Part shown: positions 21,990 through 37,100 of the stretch, piece by piece
Layout of the letters: each line of letters starts with the position of its first letter
Position numbering within the stretch: the stretch's first letter is position 1
Source: Bacteroidaceae bacterium
GTDB taxonomy: Bacteria; Bacteroidota; Bacteroidia; Bacteroidales; Bacteroidaceae
DNA length: 53,977 nucleotides
Assembly: GCA_017617335.1 (NCBI GenBank)
Contig: JAFZWK010000020.1
Span: forward strand, 1 to 53,977
Direction of reading: 5' to 3'
Notes under the pieces: model-generated
What the model was told of the DNA's origin: nothing
Seen by the model: the letters and a program-made list of their open reading frames with translations, nothing else
Database searches by the model: none
Made by a program: the position numbers and the translations under genes

Positions 21990-22655
21990 ATGGATCGTAT
22001 AGACAAATCATTGCTTAAAACTACAACAAGAGTGCTGCCCTCTGCGGTGGTACTCTTGTTCTTCATTCTTTTCTCTGGCACCATTCATGCCGAAACATCC
22101 AATCAGAAGAAAGCCGAAGAAATCTTCCAAAAGGCTTACAATCAGTTCACAGGTCCTGAGGGATGCACCTTCTCTTACAAGGTGAACATCATTGGCATCT
22201 ACAAGAATGCAGGCACCATGTGGACGAAGGGCAAGAAACAGCGCTTCATAGAAAAACGTTATCTGGGATGGACCAACGAAGACGTTTTCTATAAGGCTGA
22301 CAAGAAGAACAAGGTGGTGGAAATCCACAAGCCCAACTCGCCCAAACGTGACAAATACTCCAGCAAATTCAAATTCAACGCAGAGGATTTCATTTACAGC
22401 GTAGAAACAGAAGGTAATAACTACATCATCTCGATGGATATGAAGAGTGGAGGGACCAGCACCATCAAGCACGCCCTTGTCACCATCGACCGAAAGACAT
22501 ACGCTCCAGTGAAACTCCGTTTGAAAGTCATCTTCTTCTGGGCAACCATCGACATCTCAGACTTCAAGAAAGGCATTACTGACGAATCCATTTTCGAATT
22601 CCCCAAATCCCAATTCTCTGACTATAAGTTCAAGGACGAGAGAGCGAACGAGTAA
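21990..22655 (+). CDS. LolA-like outer-membrane lipoprotein carrier
   Basis: This 221-aa protein has an N-terminal signal sequence (about residues 16-35, ending IHAE) and a fold typical of the LolA/LolB half-barrel, with strands such as GTMWTKGKKQRFIEKRYLGW and VFYKADKKNKVVEIHKP. LolA family members carry lipoproteins across the periplasm. In Bacteroidetes several such proteins occur and the cargo is often unknown. Its place directly after a TonB receptor gene suggests a linked envelope role. Confidence 0.75.
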   Translation: MDRIDKSLLKTTTRVLPSAVVLLFFILFSGTIHAETSNQKKAEEIFQKAYNQFTGPEGCTFSYKVNIIGIYKNAGTMWTKGKKQRFIEKRYLGWTNEDVFYKADKKNKVVEIHKPNSPKRDKYSSKFKFNAEDFIYSVETEGNNYIISMDMKSGGTSTIKHALVTIDRKTYAPVKLRLKVIFFWATIDISDFKKGITDESIFEFPKSQFSDYKFKDERANE

Positions 22656-22673
22656 CATACCCCTCTGAAACGC

Positions 22674-22739
22674 AACACGTTGAAATCACAAACACAACAC
22701 GTTGAGATGAGAAAGTCAACACGTTGACAAGTTTGGCTC
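22674..22739 (+). repeat. 22-bp-period AACACGTTGA array, 3 copies
   Basis: AACACGTTGA starts at 22674, 22696 and 22718, exactly 22 bp apart, with 12-bp spacers of different sequence. It fills the 83-bp gap between the convergent LolA-like and TlpA-like genes and touches the stop codon of the latter. All copies have the same orientation as at 744 and 33929. Confidence 0.8.
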
Positions 22740-24043
22740 TACTCTCGCTCAATCGCAGCCTTAATAATCGGCTCCAAATCCTCAGCATCGTTCGACGTGG
22801 AGAGGATGATGCCGTCTCGATCGATGAGGAACATGGCGCCACCAGCATTGCCTGCGCCATTCAGCTCCCAGACGTGGTTCTCGTCGTTCAGTTCCAAGAG
22901 CGAGGACCAGGGGTAGCCATCCTGCTCTAAGGCCTGATGCATGTCCTCAGCCTTTTGCTCACGGGCTATGGCGATAACGGTGAAGCCCTTGTCCTTGTAC
23001 TTCTCATAGACAGGAATCATAGCCTTGCTGTGACGGCGGCAAGGACCGCACCACGAGGCCCAGAGGTCAATGAGCGCCACCTTGTCCTTTGTCAGCGAGG
23101 AAATGGGAACGAGCTGCCCGTCGGTGTTTCGGGCCTTGTAGTCAATGTAGGGCTTGCCAGGCTGTAGATTGAAAGCAGTCTCTGCCGTCGCAATCCGCTG
23201 ATGTATAGGATGTCCTTTGTATTGCTTGCACAATTCGTTGTCATAGAGTTTAATCATCCTCTCATACGGCGTGGAGTCAAAGTCTTTGAATAATTGGGCG
23301 TCTCCAAGCACTTCAAACGCATTGAGAACATCATAGTATGCCCACAGCATGGGATGCTCAGCGTAATACTCAACACGGAACGGACGTACTCCCTTGGCCA
23401 AACTGTTTCGTCGCTGCCACAGTGCCCATCCCTCTTCGTTGTAGCCCTGGTGCTCATCGTCGAGATAAGCGTTCAGCACGTTCCTGACGCTGTCTATGTA
23501 TTCCTGAGGCAGTCTCTCAGCATCGCTTCTTTCCAAGGTTTGATATGCTGAAATGAAATCAGGCTGAAAGTATTTCTCCTTGTGCTCTTCCAACTCACGG
23601 TCCAGTTCATCAACAACATTCCAGAACCGCACATCCTCAATGCTGTCCAGTGTCTGATGAAGAATTCCTTCCTTGCCCGTACTCTGAACCTTCGGTGCTT
23701 TGTCCTCATACATTTCTATCTGGACAGTTCCATTTTCCACAAGGAATTTGGCCGAAAACCAATGGCCTTCATCCATCTGCTTGGGGAGAACAACCTCGTA
23801 CATTTCTGGCCATTCAGTTTCGATGTCGCACTCCACTACCCCATCCACAGCTTTGTGGTGGAGTAACGAATCGTCATTGACACGAAGGTCAGTCCCATCC
23901 TTGCAGATAACCACATCGTCACCATATTGGCCAGTCATGATCTGGACCCGTACGTGGCACTTCACTTCCTTCTCTCTCTGGAAGCATCCCATCAGGAATG
24001 TGCAGGTCAACACGACAACAAGATAAAAAATTTTCTTTATCAT
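22739..24043 (-). CDS. TlpA-like thiol-disulfide lipoprotein
   Basis: This 434-aa predicted lipoprotein has a signal peptide and lipobox LMGC with the lipidated cysteine at 20. A DUF4369-like beta domain and helical linker precede a C-terminal thioredoxin domain with the redox motif WCGPC (CGPC at 332-335). The usual cis-proline before the FLID strand is replaced: the segment reads GNAGGAMFLID. It follows a larger TlpA-like gene by 22 bp and ends the sigma factor operon. Likely it reduces or isomerises periplasmic disulfides, but the missing cis-proline could change substrate handling. Confidence 0.88.
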   Translation of the reverse strand: MIKKIFYLVVVLTCTFLMGCFQREKEVKCHVRVQIMTGQYGDDVVICKDGTDLRVNDDSLLHHKAVDGVVECDIETEWPEMYEVVLPKQMDEGHWFSAKFLVENGTVQIEMYEDKAPKVQSTGKEGILHQTLDSIEDVRFWNVVDELDRELEEHKEKYFQPDFISAYQTLERSDAERLPQEYIDSVRNVLNAYLDDEHQGYNEEGWALWQRRNSLAKGVRPFRVEYYAEHPMLWAYYDVLNAFEVLGDAQLFKDFDSTPYERMIKLYDNELCKQYKGHPIHQRIATAETAFNLQPGKPYIDYKARNTDGQLVPISSLTKDKVALIDLWASWCGPCRRHSKAMIPVYEKYKDKGFTVIAIAREQKAEDMHQALEQDGYPWSSLLELNDENHVWELNGAGNAGGAMFLIDRDGIILSTSNDAEDLEPIIKAAIERE

Positions 24044-31299: not shown

Positions 31300-31701
31300 C
31301 TACCTTCCCGCTGCCAGCAATTCATAGGGGATATCATCGCACAGCATGGAGCAAGCTTTCTGCTCGGGTGGTGTGTCATCACTTGATTCTGCCAGCATGG
31401 GTTTCTCATACTTAGTGACGATGCGCGTCTGATAAATGGTATCGCGAACGGTCTGTACCTGCATGATGGTGTCATGCTGCACTTGAACGACCTGAGTCTC
31501 CAAGGGGGCTGTCGGCTGAGGAACATTGGCATGAAGCGCATAGCCGGCAAAAAAACTGACGAGGCTTGCTGCAACGCCCACGGCTGCCACAAGTCCACCG
31601 CTACGACGGCAACTCTCCCAAGGTTCAACACTCATGCGACTTTCCACCTTCTGACGCTGACGACGGGCCGACTCTATTATTTGTTCGTTACTTATCTTCA
31701 T
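31300..31701 (-). CDS. Putative anti-sigma factor, small membrane protein
   Basis: This 133-aa protein has a short basic cytoplasmic N-terminus (about 33 residues), one membrane segment (about 36-57, GLVAAVGVAASLVSFFAGYA) and a periplasmic part. It starts inside the 3' end of the sigma factor gene (14-bp overlap), the normal place for an anti-sigma factor. No conserved domain is recognised, so the role rests on context. Confidence 0.65.
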   Translation of the reverse strand: MKISNEQIIESARRQRQKVESRMSVEPWESCRRSGGLVAAVGVAASLVSFFAGYALHANVPQPTAPLETQVVQVQHDTIMQVQTVRDTIYQTRIVTKYEKPMLAESSDDTPPEQKACSMLCDDIPYELLAAGR

Positions 31702-32263
31702 ATTTCTTTAGTTTTTTTCGGATTATATTCATTGTTTTATGCAGGCGGGATTTTACTGTTCCCTCAGGAATGCCCATAATCTCTGCCACTTGAGGAATGG
31801 TTAGCTCCTCCTGATAATGCAGAGAGAAGATTTGATGCAACGGTGCAGGCAGTTCGGCAAGTACTTGCTGGAGAGCCTCATCCAACACAGCAGCATCCAG
31901 TTCCACCTCTATCTGCTGTTCCGAAACAGGTTCCGCATCCAGGTTGGCCAGCATCTGAGCCTCGTAGGCATTGCTCCTGTAGAGGTTGCGGCAGATGTTA
32001 TAGGCGATGGTGAATATCCAAGTGCTGACATTACTGCCCTCCTGGTAGCGACTGCGGGCTTCGTAGGCTCTCAGGAATAAATCGTGAGTAGAGTCGGCTG
32101 CCAGTTCCTCATCGCCACCCAACTGCATGAAGAAGAAACCTTTCAACCTACGGGCATAGCGACGATACAACTCCTCGAAAGCTGTATCGCTGCCTGTTGC
32201 CGCCCGAGCCATCAACTGCTCGTCGGTCTGCTGACGGAGAGGACTAAGACGGAAGATGCTCAT
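31688..32263 (-). CDS. ECF RNA polymerase sigma factor
   Basis: This 191-aa sigma-70 family protein has region 2 (FEELYRRYARRLKGFFF and DSTHDLFLRAYEARSRY, then WIFTIAYNICRNLYR) and region 4 (LPAPLHQIFSLHYQEELT, then IPQVAEIMGIPEGTVKSRLHK). Its ATG overlaps the stop of the upstream 438-codon frame by 4 bp, so it is translationally coupled to a secreted protein rather than leading its operon. It is the second ECF system within 4 kb and is not closely similar to the one at 28422. Confidence 0.92.
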   Translation of the reverse strand: MSIFRLSPLRQQTDEQLMARAATGSDTAFEELYRRYARRLKGFFFMQLGGDEELAADSTHDLFLRAYEARSRYQEGSNVSTWIFTIAYNICRNLYRSNAYEAQMLANLDAEPVSEQQIEVELDAAVLDEALQQVLAELPAPLHQIFSLHYQEELTIPQVAEIMGIPEGTVKSRLHKTMNIIRKKLKKYEDK

Positions 32264-33519
32264 TTCAGATACCCTTTGAATTCATCAACATCAAAGTTTT
32301 TCTTATCCAACTGAGCTATGATATCGGTAAAGATATCACGCAGCCACTGATAGCGCTCCTTGTTGTGCTGCTTGTAGTAGGGCAATTGGTCATGCAGCAG
32401 ACGCATATAATCTATGGCATACGCTTCGGGAACACATGCGAATCGCCGATGGTCTTCCTTCCGTTTAGGATGGAACGGCATACGCAGATATTCCAGGCGA
32501 TAACGCTTCTCTATGTTGCGACGCTTCACAGACATATTGTCATAGGGACGGGTAGAATAGCGCATGGTCAGACCCTCGTTGTAGAAACAGGCTTTCAGCT
32601 CGTCAGGCAACCCTTTCCCAATAATGAGCCCCCACATATTGTGAGCCGACAAATAGACAGGGCGCTTGCTATTGTCGACGATATAGCGCAAGAATTTCAA
32701 TAGTTGCTGTTCCTGTTCTCCCATATGCAACAATCCCCAAACCTCCTCGTTGAAAGGAATACCTATCTTGCCAAACAGCCGCCTCACTTGGAATGGATGC
32801 ATGGCGGCATTCTCGTGGAGGACTATCTTGTCCTTATGAACACCCAGCACCTGCTGCAGAATAAGTTTACCTATGATGTCACCCATTTGAGCACCAACAT
32901 AAACACCGCCTTCATTCATTCCCTGCAACTCATTGAAATGGTACTGCAAGTCTTCCTCTGGGTACTGTCCGCTTTCATAATAACGGGTCAGTAAATTTTT
33001 CAACCTAACAGAGTCACACTCATCGATGAGGTATGGTATCCAAGTCTCATAGTCATCGGCCAAGGCTTTGTCTGGCAGACAGACTATGGCAGAATCGGCA
33101 TAAGCGTTGTAGTGCGCAAACAACGTCATTGCACCGTTTTCCTTATAGCGTTTCTCTTCTTCCTCTGGGAGATAGCTGCCTTCATGGGCACAATAATAAA
33201 AGGTATAGGTACCTGGTATGGTCTTCTCCATGTGTCCTACCACGTTCATTTGCTTGCGGTATCGCTCGCTGCCGTTCCAATCTTTGGTTCTGTTGATCAT
33301 GTCAAACACTTTGCCTTCCGACACTTCAAAGAGGTTGCGCCAGGCAATTTCATCTTTCGGGTGAATCTGAACGTATGTGTTCCAAAAATTGTAAAGGCTG
33401 TCAGCTTTTATGGAATCTGCGAATAAAACCTCGTGCCGACGGACACGCTTCGTCTCCTGTCCGCTGGCTCCTGTCATCATCGTAATGGCCACCAGCAATG
33501 TCAAAATCGTACGTTTCAT
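32260..33519 (-). CDS. Secreted protein of unknown function coupled to ECF sigma factor
   Basis: I place the start at 33519 (MKRTILTLLVAITMMTGASG), giving 419 aa with a good signal peptide; the frame extends upstream to 33576 without a signal-like sequence. The mature protein is mostly helical with conserved-looking aromatic and charged stretches (FWNTYVQIHPKDEIAWRNLF). No motif is recognised. Its stop overlaps the sigma factor start by 4 bp, which suggests it acts as signal source or part of the regulated function. Confidence 0.78.
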   Translation of the reverse strand: MKRTILTLLVAITMMTGASGQETKRVRRHEVLFADSIKADSLYNFWNTYVQIHPKDEIAWRNLFEVSEGKVFDMINRTKDWNGSERYRKQMNVVGHMEKTIPGTYTFYYCAHEGSYLPEEEEKRYKENGAMTLFAHYNAYADSAIVCLPDKALADDYETWIPYLIDECDSVRLKNLLTRYYESGQYPEEDLQYHFNELQGMNEGGVYVGAQMGDIIGKLILQQVLGVHKDKIVLHENAAMHPFQVRRLFGKIGIPFNEEVWGLLHMGEQEQQLLKFLRYIVDNSKRPVYLSAHNMWGLIIGKGLPDELKACFYNEGLTMRYSTRPYDNMSVKRRNIEKRYRLEYLRMPFHPKRKEDHRRFACVPEAYAIDYMRLLHDQLPYYKQHNKERYQWLRDIFTDIIAQLDKKNFDVDEFKGYLK

Positions 33520-33621
33520 AATCTCTGTTTCTGCTTTTGTTTTGACAGCATACACACGAAACAGCAAATCGTTCATTCTTTTTTCATTTTAGGGCAAACA
33601 ACTCGGGGATGACGGTTTGCC

Positions 33622-33861: not shown

Positions 33862-33928
33862 CCTTTCAGACGAGAGGTAAGCAAAATTCGATGTTTTTTG
33901 GTGCCGAAATGCTCATTTTTTTAGGAAA

Positions 33929-34016
33929 AACACGTTGTTTTGGGTGTTTTAACGCGTTGACTGAGCCATTTTAACACGTTGAGATGCCTTTTTCATCACG
34001 TTGAAATTGCCGTCTC
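33929..34016 (+). repeat. 22-bp-period AACACGTTGA array, 4 copies
   Basis: Cores start at 33929 (AACACGTTG), 33951 (AACGCGTTGA), 33973 (AACACGTTGA) and 33995 (ATCACGTTGA), each exactly 22 bp apart. Spacers differ in sequence though several end in TTTT or TTTC. The two central-base changes keep the CAAC/GTTG-like half-sites mostly intact. Orientation is the same as in the arrays at 744 and 22674. Confidence 0.8.
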
Positions 34017-34036
34017 TATTAGAGGCGGTTTTGTAA

Positions 34037-34183
34037 GTGCTTGATTATCAAGTAGAGAAAGGCGATGCGGCAGGCCTTTTGCGCAAGTGGGTACAACGCG
34101 GCTACTGCAGCTACGATGCTGCCAACGACCACTATGTCAAGAGTCCGCAGTTCCTGGCCAAACATCCGCAGACCACAGAATAG
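34037..34183 (+). pseudogene. Short coding fragment, C-terminal remnant
   Basis: A 48-codon plus-strand frame (GTG at 34037, stop 34181-34183; in-frame TAA directly before it) translates to VLDYQVEKGDAAGLLRKWVQ and onward, a well-composed helical sequence with no start signals. It looks like the tail of a larger gene, perhaps of a mobile or plasmid-type protein, left after deletion. The parent family is not certain. Confidence 0.3.
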
Positions 34184-34195
34184 AAGAAACTTAAA

Positions 34196-34292: not shown

Positions 34293-37100
34293 TTACTCAG
34301 TAGGACTCTTCATTCCCACTACCAAACGGTTGCCACTACGGAATATCTTCTGGGCAAGCTTGCGGAGATCCTCAGTCGTGATGGACTCCACAACCTTATC
34401 GTAATCCTTCACCATCTCGTAGCCTGAGCGGGTCTTGTTGTAAAGGGAGTTCATCCAGTAACTGTTGGACTTGAGGTCCTCTGCATGGCTGCGAATCATG
34501 TATTCCTTGATTTTCTGCAGATAATCTGCTGATGGGCCTTCGTCACATACCTTATCCACTCCATCGTATACCACCTGCATCATGCGGTCAAGCTTTTCAG
34601 GAGCTGTGGGCAACTGGATGGTCATGACAGCAATAGACTGAGGATAATCTGTCAGCCTACCGCGAGTGGGCACTCCGTATGCACCACCCTCGTCTTCGCG
34701 AACGGTCTCTGTATAGAGCATGGACATAGCTTGCTGGAGCATGCTGACCATAATGGAGTTGCGAAGATTGTACTTCATGGGACAATGATAGGTGAAGACG
34801 GTAACGGAGTTGGGAGTATCCTGCTCCTTATCGAAGATGCAAGTCTTCTGGCCAACCTGCAGCACATTGTCGATCTTTTTGTACTTCTCGTGACCTTTCG
34901 ATACGGGCAAAGCACCCAGATACTTGGTGATAAGGGGAGCAACGGAATCCACGTTGAGGTCACCCACGAAGTAGAACTCGAAGTCACCGGCATTGGCATA
35001 ACGCTCCTTGTAAACCTCAAGCAGACGGTCATAATCGTTGATCTTGTCTACATCAGAAGAGCGGAAACGCACAGCACGCACATTGTTGTTGTAGAGAATG
35101 CTGGCGATACTGTCCTGAAGGGCAACCTGAGGATTCAGGTCCTGATTCTTGAGCGCATTACGATAACGGTCGAGAGTGCTCTGGAAGGTTTCATCATCGC
35201 GATGAGGAGCGGTAAAGCAAAGATAAAGTAACTGAAGCATGGTCTCGAAGTCCTTCTTGACACAGCTACCCTCGAGATTCTCGGTGCGGTTGCCTATGCT
35301 GGGCGAACAACTTGCCTGGATACCAGCCAACTTCTTTTGCAACTGGATAGCGGTGAACTCACCCCATCCGCCAAGACCTATCATGTCGGCATTGCTGGTG
35401 ATGAGATAATCGTTGTTGGGATAAAGACTGGTACCTCCCCAACTGGTAGCCTGCATGGAAATCTGGTTGGGAGAATAATCGGTCTGCAGGACATGAACCT
35501 TGAGCCCATTGCTCAAAGTGAGCAACTTGGCACCATACACGTCATCCTTGATCTTCTTTACAGTAACGTCACTCGTCAGCTCAGGAACCAAAGGATCGGT
35601 ATTCACCTCTTCTGCAAAGACCTCAATCTCCTCAGCATCAACAGCCTTCAAAGTATTCAGGATCTGCTCCTCGGTGGGATACTCCACGCCCTCCTTGTCT
35701 GGAAGGAAGAGAGCAATGGCACGGTTGTTTTCAGGTATCTGGGCGATGCTCTGATTGATTACCTCGAGAGGAATCATAGGAACAAGCTGCTTGTAAGTTT
35801 TGTGCTCCCACTCGATACCAGGGGTAGGCTCATTGTCGAGGAAATAACGAACGTATTCGTTAACATAACTGGTGTTCTCGACTTTGTCACGGGCCTCATA
35901 CATGGCATCAACGCGAGAGAGGAACTCCTGCTGGTAGCGGTCGTACTCACCTTGAGTGAAACCACCTCGCTTAGCACGAAGCAGCTCACGATACATGGTG
36001 GCGATGCCAGGAAGATACTGACCATCCTTCATCATGATTGTCACATCGATGGCGTCCTTGGTCTTGGCAACCATATACTCATCAAAACTGATCTGGCTAC
36101 CAATGAAGGGACAGTCAGCCTTGCGCGTAAGGTCGGCAATACGCTCAGAAAACATGCCAGAGATTGCTCCCTCGACATATTTTGCCATCAAGTAGGCCAT
36201 CGTGTTCTTCATCTCGCGGGGAGCGGGATCAGTCTTGAACAACAGCAGGGCATAGGAACCTGGCTGCTCCTTGTCCTTCTGAATGGTGACAAGAGGAGTA
36301 TCGTTGTCGGGCACAGGATAGTACTCGCGAACGGCTGCATCAGCAGGAGCAGGGTCGATGTCAGCAAAGACTGCCTGTATCTTCTTCTCTATCTCATCGA
36401 CATCCACGTCGCCCACAACGACAAGAGCCTGAAGGTCAGGACGATACCAGCGACGATAGTAGGAACGCAAATCCTCGTAAGGGAAATTCATGACAATCTC
36501 CATTGTTCCGATTGGCATACGATTGGCATACTTACTATCCTTGAAGAGAGTCTTGAAAGCCTCCTCCTGCATACGCTGCATAGCACTACGACGCATACGC
36601 CACTCCTCGTTGATGACACCACGCTCCTTGTCGATCTCCTTATCCTCGAGCAGCAAGTCGTGGCTCCAATCATGGAGAATGAGCAAACAGGAATCGATGG
36701 CTCCTGAAGTCTCGACATTCACATTATTTATATTATAGACCGTTTCATCGAAAGAAGTGTAGGCATTGAGGTTCTCACCAAACTTCACACCGATGCGCTC
36801 AAGATATTGTTTCAAAGCATCACCAGGGAAATGAGTGGTACCGTTGAAACACATGTGCTCGAGGAAATGAGCCAAACCACGTTGGTTCTCCTCTTCCTGC
36901 ATGGAACCCACCTTCTGAGCGATGTAGAAATCCACACGTTTCTCAGGCCATTCATTGTGACGGATAAAATAAGTCAGTCCATTAGGCAACACTCCCGTCT
37001 TGACAGCAGGGTCAAGAGGAATAGTCGGCATTTGCTGCTGGGCATGACCTGTAGTGAAGAGCATGACCAGAGAAAACACAGTCAAAACAATCTTTTTCAT
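34293..37100 (-). CDS. M16-family zinc metallopeptidase (PqqL/insulinase type)
   Basis: This 935-aa secreted protease has a signal peptide (residues 1-20, ending GHAQ). The inverted zinc motif HFLEH is at 78-82 and the third ligand is probably E159. The four-domain layout of M16 is present: an active N-terminal half and a C-terminal half without the motif (from about 500). M16 enzymes cleave peptides enclosed in a clamshell chamber in the periplasm. It follows a small lipoprotein gene by 48 bp, in one operon with der. Confidence 0.93.
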   Translation of the reverse strand: MKKIVLTVFSLVMLFTTGHAQQQMPTIPLDPAVKTGVLPNGLTYFIRHNEWPEKRVDFYIAQKVGSMQEEENQRGLAHFLEHMCFNGTTHFPGDALKQYLERIGVKFGENLNAYTSFDETVYNINNVNVETSGAIDSCLLILHDWSHDLLLEDKEIDKERGVINEEWRMRRSAMQRMQEEAFKTLFKDSKYANRMPIGTMEIVMNFPYEDLRSYYRRWYRPDLQALVVVGDVDVDEIEKKIQAVFADIDPAPADAAVREYYPVPDNDTPLVTIQKDKEQPGSYALLLFKTDPAPREMKNTMAYLMAKYVEGAISGMFSERIADLTRKADCPFIGSQISFDEYMVAKTKDAIDVTIMMKDGQYLPGIATMYRELLRAKRGGFTQGEYDRYQQEFLSRVDAMYEARDKVENTSYVNEYVRYFLDNEPTPGIEWEHKTYKQLVPMIPLEVINQSIAQIPENNRAIALFLPDKEGVEYPTEEQILNTLKAVDAEEIEVFAEEVNTDPLVPELTSDVTVKKIKDDVYGAKLLTLSNGLKVHVLQTDYSPNQISMQATSWGGTSLYPNNDYLITSNADMIGLGGWGEFTAIQLQKKLAGIQASCSPSIGNRTENLEGSCVKKDFETMLQLLYLCFTAPHRDDETFQSTLDRYRNALKNQDLNPQVALQDSIASILYNNNVRAVRFRSSDVDKINDYDRLLEVYKERYANAGDFEFYFVGDLNVDSVAPLITKYLGALPVSKGHEKYKKIDNVLQVGQKTCIFDKEQDTPNSVTVFTYHCPMKYNLRNSIMVSMLQQAMSMLYTETVREDEGGAYGVPTRGRLTDYPQSIAVMTIQLPTAPEKLDRMMQVVYDGVDKVCDEGPSADYLQKIKEYMIRSHAEDLKSNSYWMNSLYNKTRSGYEMVKDYDKVVESITTEDLRKLAQKIFRSGNRLVVGMKSPTE

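Follow-up and report, generated by a model that had tools for sequence, protein, structure and literature searches.

The window analyzed here, a 53,977-nucleotide stretch of DNA (contig JAFZWK010000020.1 of the Bacteroidaceae bacterium assembly GCA_017617335.1), carries short arrays in which 10-bp palindromic cores, separated by 12-bp spacers, recur with a period of exactly 22 bp. Arrays of this plan are scattered past gene 3′ ends in the window's own assembly and in other genomes of its genus, where the layout is kept and the core word differs from one species group to another. Families of repeats scattered over bacterial genomes are as a rule identified by what their copies have in common in sequence; in these arrays it is the layout that is fixed to the base pair, and the sequence varies. 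The arrays are probably tandem operator-like sites for a homodimeric, sequence-specific DNA-binding protein that would lie on one face of the helix and whose specificity would change among species, a reading that we favor with some reserve. The observation from which this analysis started, a four-copy array reported in an initial annotation made from the letters of the window alone, is real and far larger in extent than first described; that the word changes between species groups was not seen at the time.

Register, anatomy and placement of the arrays

Cores similar to AACACGTTGA start at bp 33929, 33951, 33973 and 33995 of the window (1, 1, 0 and 1 mismatches, respectively), exactly at the places and with the 22-bp period first reported. 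Same-strand AACACGTTG pairs in the window, with at most one mismatch in each member, number six at a distance of 22 bp and zero at all other distances from 12 to 40 bp, and 20 dinucleotide shuffles of the window gave no pair at 22 bp and at most one pair at any distance. The window's own assembly (G000; 2.37 Mb in 73 contigs, 62% complete) holds 121 pairs (61 + 60) that fit the variable-gap pattern AACACGTTGN{2,32}AACACGTTG, with a period of 22 throughout among the matches listed, and the reversed control gave none. In 0.82 Mb taken from G000 and its relative G054, the nearest core neighbors within 100 bp are 22 bp (78 cases), 44 bp (2), 66 bp (2) or 88 bp (1) apart, that is, 83 of 83 distances are multiples of 22; likewise, all 32 one-mismatch neighbors found at 10–34 bp are at 22 bp. 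The same holds over a longer range: exact cores up to 400 bp apart, whichever way the two face, are always separated by a multiple of 22 bp (436 kb of G000, 381 kb of G054). The excess of the 22-bp spacing over other spacings, which the initial annotation proposed as a check, is thus present in the window, G000 and G054. Because all the G000 stretches and some of those from G054 come from contigs in which arrays had been found beforehand, the array densities given below are not genome averages.

Four units is the commonest size among arrays of at least three units (11 of 24 in G000 and 10 of 24 in G054), giving a length of about 88 bp. The core in these two genomes is CAAC-AC-GTTG, or CAAC-GT-GTTG when read on the other strand, and some arrays mix both; its central two bases are AC or GT and rarely AT or GC. 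All core types are palindromes with a 2-bp center or none (CAACryGTTG, CCGCryGCGG, CAACCGGTTG, GGTTAACC and TGCAATTGCA). The spacers had been described as variable, and they do differ, but they are not arbitrary: read outward from the core they follow the consensus WVWYBG|CVRWBW, whose dyad lies 11 bp from that of the core. As this consensus, common to the spacers, is two-fold symmetric, the arrays are really built of 22-bp quasi-palindromes that have their second dyad in the spacer. Individual spacers are found in either orientation, and those of G000, G054, G052 and G012 each share a symmetric consensus. Outside the arrays, the terminal flanks (24 arrays each from G000 and G054) have only T-richness and decayed core remnants in common; in G000 it is the outward flanks that are T-rich.

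The arrays are mostly intergenic and lie near gene 3′ ends. By gene calls from a simple codon-usage script of our own, in place of a standard gene finder, among 57 arrays with two or more units, 5 overlap a gene (three two-unit arrays, one weak four-unit array and one array with an edge overlap of ∼10 bp), and 7 further arrays at the ends of stretches were left unclassed. The initial annotation had named a lack of excess at 22 bp, or random sites including the insides of genes, as findings that would speak against the element; neither is what is seen. Their median separation from a 3′ end is 51 bp (n = 51) and from a 5′ end 177 bp (n = 39). Convergent intergenic regions hold 14 arrays per 31 regions vs 31 per 190 for the others (Fisher P 0.0011), a test in which the regions were gaps of at least 100 bp and arrays in shorter gaps were counted too. 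An array is found in 57 of 263 regions of at least 60 bp past 3′ ends in the G000 and G054 stretches, and in 19 of 76 in G052. In tandem gene contexts the core center has no preference for the strand of the gene (AC 42 vs GT 49).

Positions are shared by related species. Arrays of other genomes with both flanks matched in the G000 stretches had at least one exact core there in six of six cases, and G000 arrays with both flanks matched in the G054 stretches in four of four, which makes 10 of 10 in the two directions together, a place being scored as occupied when one or more exact cores lay close to where they were expected. The queries numbered 81 and 27; one flank alone was matched for 9 and 6 of them, and most of the others had no match in the stretches compared. 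In eight orthologous array pairs whose members have the same number of units, differences amount to 5 of 224 positions in the core arms, 18 of 56 in the centers, 97 of 240 in the spacers and 235 of 480 in the ungapped flanks, a contrast between core and spacer that is biased because the arrays were recognized by their cores; the absence of off-register neighbors is not explained by that bias. The center changes in these pairs are full AC/GT flips only (9 of 28 units), with no single-base step, and some centers are flipped while the neighboring spacers are unchanged. Where orthologous arrays differ in unit number, they do so by whole units.

The window itself holds three arrays, all given here on the + strand. 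The four-unit array (about bp 33928–34004; lag-22 identity 29/44 over its 10-bp cores and 12-bp spacers) lies about 290 bp from the 3′ end of an M16 peptidase gene (bp 34293–37100, − strand), which points toward it and served as the anchor for the matching slot in 12 other genomes; a short coding-like stretch (bp 34017–34190) separates the two. The same layout had been reported at 744 and 22674, and both arrays are there. The three-unit array (about bp 22673–22726) has exact cores from 22674, 22696 and 22718 and lies between convergent genes, 17 bp and 12 bp away from the 3′ ends of a gene without Pfam match (bp 21990–22655, + strand) and of a gene for a thioredoxin-like (AhpC/TSA, Redoxin) protein (bp 22739–24043, − strand), respectively. 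The two-unit array (about bp 743–774, cores from 744 and 766 with 1 mismatch each) is near a tRNA-Val gene (bp 893–968, − strand) whose 3′ end is on the side of the array. A gene for a sigma-70 family factor (regions 2 and 4; bp 31688–32263) is adjoined by the genes at bp 31300–31701 and 32260–33576, both without Pfam match.

One plan, several words

A survey of the word CAACNNGTTG covered 139 genomes of the genus. Its pairs at 22 bp number 160 in G000, 261 in G054 and 136 in G009, which have this word in common; the 12, 8 and 1 matches to the pattern in G074, G087 and G101 are mostly CAACCGGTTG, and three other genomes gave single matches. The reversed control of this survey, GTTGNNCAACN{12}GTTGNNCAAC, is itself a period-22 palindrome pattern and was not clean, with matches in 20 genomes and up to 16 places in G052; none of these is inside the sampled G052 or G072 stretches. 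G052 has 368 pairs of CCGCNNGCGG; G072 has 4 of them beside its own units GCAATTGC/TACATGTA, which it has in common with G202. G012 has 105 pairs of GGTTAACC, which with the gap left free from 4 to 34 bp have period 22 throughout among the matches listed, and there were none in the 11 other genomes checked. G118 has a small CTTAAG set, chiefly of period 23. The reversed controls of the G012-word and G118-word surveys gave 1 match in G079 and 1–2 in four genomes.

In a second genus of the family, CAACnnGTTG cores are present in three of six sampled genomes (33 pairs in G246, 17 in G302 and 19 in G331), with spacers quite unlike those of the G000 type, for example CACGTG at the spacer dyad; the reversed control of that survey matched 1–3 places in each of 6 genomes. 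Among the matches listed, and where the carrier is named, the CAACACGTTG type is found mainly in rumen or omasum metagenome assemblies labeled Bacteroidaceae, Prevotellaceae or Prevotella, and also in a few contigs under other labels, one of which (Nocardioides) is likely due to chance. A contig labeled Paludibacteraceae (L040) also has a CAACACGTTG pair; short pieces of this contig are similar to G000 flanks, which points to a possible binning error or transfer.

A blind lag scan, which takes in coding repeats, was run on 2.0 Mb from 31 genomes of the genus. It gave 104 loci at period 22, no other period had more than 22, and 17 of the 31 genomes have at least one period-22 locus. Outside the five richest genomes there are 26 such loci in 12 genomes (0.81 Mb). 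Consensus units are more palindromic than shuffles (P ≤ 0.05) at 32 of 104 loci of period 22 vs 6 of 48 at 18–21 and 23–25. The background of the scan is not zero, since 20 other families of the order (286 kb) gave 3 loci at period 22 and 4 at 16.

Other repeats were met in the same material. G052 arrays (L311, L266, L279, L168) often end in-register with a different cap palindrome, for example CCCTTAAGGG or CCCTGTAGGG. Stretches of G112, G001 and G043 (L184–L187, L192–L195 and L180–L183) and the pooled stretches have periods of 14, 21, 28 and 35, which are those of heptamer-based repeats (AGGTTAA, CTTGAAA, CTCTAAA), a separate kind.

The region past a given gene may hold arrays of different words. 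Two genes, here called gene 1 and gene 2, were chosen for having, in the region past them, arrays both of the G000/G054 type and of the G052 type, and the genomes on which they were selected are accordingly not counted in the tally. By a lag test of at least 28/44 identical positions, the gene 1 slot holds an array in 5 of the 12 remaining genomes (G118, with period 23, G085, G012, G202 and G072) and the gene 2 slot in 3 of 13 (G202, G214 and G012); two full-length matches with an internal stop (G032 and G077) were left out, as was one anchor gene that is not conserved. The M16 slot, which was not selected for arrays, has a lag-22 array in 2 of 12 other genomes (G012 and G065), with 24 genomes having a full-length match. 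With 2 of 12 others and none in G054 at the M16 slot, vs 5 of 12 and 3 of 13 at the picked genes, inheritance of the slots is not established, and a formal ortholog test of slot sharing on a very small sample gave 3 of 4 vs 1 of 3 (P 0.37). The sharing of slots across core types is at most suggestive. Three other layouts were noted: 3′ of the gene 1 ortholog in G202 (L292) an array has an 11-bp plus a 22-bp lag (GGCTGCTTCTA), one helical turn and not two; in G085 (L290) and G214 (L300) there are, by eye, inverted repeats whose arms repeat a CACGGATTT- or CACGAATTA-like word about every 11 bp; and 3′ of the gene 1 ortholog in G067 (L295), CTGTCCGG occurs three times in about 200 bp, one copy being inverted.

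Proposed protein-bound sites and the alternatives

The palindromes with a two-base center or none, the exact two-turn spacing, the conserved half-sites and the strand symmetry suggest one protein dimer per unit and a single face of the DNA. From the observed spacing, symmetry, placement and conservation, and from the cores that differ, we infer the binding, the oligomeric form of the protein, its change together with its sites and its role. One dimer would sit on the dyad of each 22-bp unit; with units two helical turns apart, all dimers would be on one DNA face, where they might touch and bind cooperatively, or the DNA might wrap around an oligomer. The protein and its sites would change specificity together, the 22-bp plan being kept as the core comes to differ by species group; that the words differ implies either such joint change or the spread of new words over places of a kind already in existence. 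Because the arrays sit past gene 3′ ends, the likeliest role would be the marking or insulating of transcription-unit ends (by roadblock, or by supercoil or nucleoid organization). Binding to one helix face had already been suggested in the initial annotation; the strict spacing, kept arms, palindromic cores and lack of strand bias fit it, and the protein itself is inferred, since none was identified.

Several points weigh against this protein-bound row of sites. No binding protein was identified and no gene was seen that tracks the arrays (the Lrp-type family was not searched). A regulator with some hundred sites should not easily change specificity, yet the core differs within one genus, and the types are not strictly one per genome, since G072 holds two. 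Many of the stretches were picked from contigs with known arrays, presence in the flank test asks for a single exact core, and the better conservation of cores than of spacers carries the recognition bias given above. No period-22 locus was found in 14 of the 31 genomes of the lag scan (each of them sampled for at most 20 kb), and 13 of the 26 outer period-22 loci are not more palindromic than shuffles (P 0.05). At the focal locus, G054 has no array in the M16 slot although its M16 protein is 96% identical. The terminator-like hairpins in 36 of 51 array regions, taken up below, count in the same direction.

The initial annotation also offered a small replicating repeat, and each type is indeed spread over many loci of one genome. 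Such an interspersed 22-bp palindrome, similar to repetitive extragenic palindromes (REPs), would be spread and homogenized by a mobilizing enzyme, would grow and shrink through slippage or unequal recombination, and would be tolerated beyond the ends of genes with no protein bound to it. The whole-unit differences between orthologous arrays, the other types in other species and the decayed core remnants in the flanks are all in keeping with this origin, which we nevertheless regard as unlikely: cores were found at all 10 places for which both flanks had a match, no off-register spacing is found although the spacers differ by 40%, the cores are kept far better than the spacers, and no match to Y1_Tnp (PF01797), the signature of REP-associated tyrosine transposases (RAYTs), was found in G000 and G009 (both 62–67% complete), G052 (89%) or G054 (97%). 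Elements that act in the RNA, either as two-way terminators or as 3′-untranslated-region hairpins formed by the pairing of adjacent units, seem a poorer explanation still. Their location past 3′ ends would be expected, as would fold z-scores that average about −2.4 and the T-rich outward flanks of G000, and with the array left unmasked a terminator-like hairpin is found in 36 of 51 array regions vs 59 of 129 array-free ones (13 of 17 vs 19 of 35 in G052). This idea is weakened by strand symmetry, the fold scores being equal on both strands (mean −2.36 and −2.40; 48 arrays), and by a control in which the array is masked: independent terminators then occur about as often in array regions (11 of 51) as in array-free regions with random masks (33 of 129); in G052 the counts are 8 of 17 and 9 of 35. 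The T content of the distal flank is 0.55 vs 0.49 for the gene-proximal flank in G000 and G054 (n = 24), and the element there is not oriented by strand; G052 leans toward an orientation, with 0.77 vs 0.50 (n = 8). In G054 and G009, by eye, gene 1 and the array past it have a terminator-like hairpin between them. The arrays may stop transcription. That they replace terminators was suggested by an uncontrolled count (9 of 57 vs 80 of 206), and this difference was gone when random masks of array size were used.

Two further explanations were considered. DNA-uptake or self-recognition words with dialects, maintained by biased uptake, would agree with a conserved core that differs by species group and sits past 3′ ends, by analogy with uptake sequences; known uptake words occur singly or as inverted pairs and not as 22-bp arrays, and we think this very improbable. 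To crossover sites of a site-specific recombinase, at which units would be inverted or deleted around a 2-bp asymmetric center, we give hardly any credence: the centers of G000 and G054 (AC or GT, rarely AT or GC), their full flips in 9 of 28 orthologous units without a single-base step and the spacers in both orientations would suit it, but recombination should flip the spacers, and some centers are flipped between unchanged ones, and other types have symmetric centers (CG, GC, TA). A phage origin was also considered; the pair pattern had no exact match in viral_contigs.

If the arrays are indeed protein-bound sites, a wider picture is possible, though we put it forward only tentatively and rather doubt it. 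It would be a family-wide chromosomal nucleoprotein system with a constant geometry (22-bp units, a dyad every 11 bp, placement past 3′ ends), in which the recognition word is rewritten genome-wide between species groups, as in an arms race between protein and site, so that the word in the slot past one and the same gene can depend on the species looked at. More generally, a fixed layout with a changing word in this genus of gut and rumen bacteria calls for a protein that repeats every two turns, touches the ends of many genes and changes in specificity. Confirmation of the protein-bound reading would reveal how these genomes demarcate transcription units or organize their nucleoid, and in what way a DNA-binding protein can change along with its hundred or more sites.

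Comparison with known systems

REPs and bacterial interspersed mosaic elements (BIMEs) are short palindromic repeats between genes, often past 3′ ends, that differ among species. The present arrays are likewise dispersed, intergenic and palindromic; unlike REP/BIME elements with a RAYT, they have a strict 22-bp period and dyads 11 bp apart, and there is no Y1_Tnp match in four array-rich genomes, so that membership was rejected. Such a match is present in 9 of 18 genomes, including the array-bearing G087, G074 and G202 as well as apparently array-poor ones. Plasmid iterons are tandem sites of ∼22 bp on one helix face, direct and usually non-palindromic, at a replication origin, where a Rep initiator binds them; the arrays resemble them in tandem sites of about that size and in the presumed single face, and differ in being scattered over the genome. 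Clustered regularly interspaced short palindromic repeats (CRISPR) combine identical repeats with spacers that are unrelated to each other, which the arrays do not, given the symmetric consensus that the spacers share in G000, G054, G052 and G012 (cas genes were not searched). TAACTGA repeats of Beggiatoaceae and some Bacteroidetes are heptamer direct repeats mostly just upstream of start codons, whereas the arrays are palindromic and lie past 3′ ends.

The BrickBuilt elements of Porphyromonas gingivalis, as described in the available part of PMC4596501, are intergenic tandem 23-nt repeats inside a miniature inverted-repeat transposable element (MITE) with leader and tail, and their repeat number varies among strains. 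The arrays are similar to them in repeat size, intergenic tandem layout and phylum. They differ from what that part describes in their palindromic core, and no leader or tail was seen in the flanks of 24 G000 and 24 G054 arrays; the nearest to such ends are the in-register cap units, such as CCCTTAAGGG, of some G052 arrays. PMC5771137 states that short repeats were left without annotation there. No description of such arrays was found in the open-access literature (without preprints and most subscription journals), in agreement with the initial annotation, which knew of no named element with this layout; relative to that literature the scale, the strictness and the changing word appear to be new.

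The nearest parallels are in mechanism. For two BarR proteins of the Lrp/AsnC type, 4–5 regularly spaced semipalindromic sites were predicted, two helical turns apart, with the DNA wrapped around an octamer (PMC10201364, as far as its available text goes). The arrays have the same evenly spaced semipalindromic sites at two turns, with four units as the commonest size; the BarR sites in that text lie in one promoter region, unlike the many loci at gene 3′ ends here. RemA of Bacillus forms an octameric ring that binds DNA of repetitive and poorly conserved sequence, which it may wrap; it differs in being an activator of biofilm matrix genes, and the accessible text describes no palindromic 22-bp array (PMC8481266). 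BarR and RemA could serve, by analogy, as working models for how a row of such sites is occupied, rather than as families to which the arrays belong.
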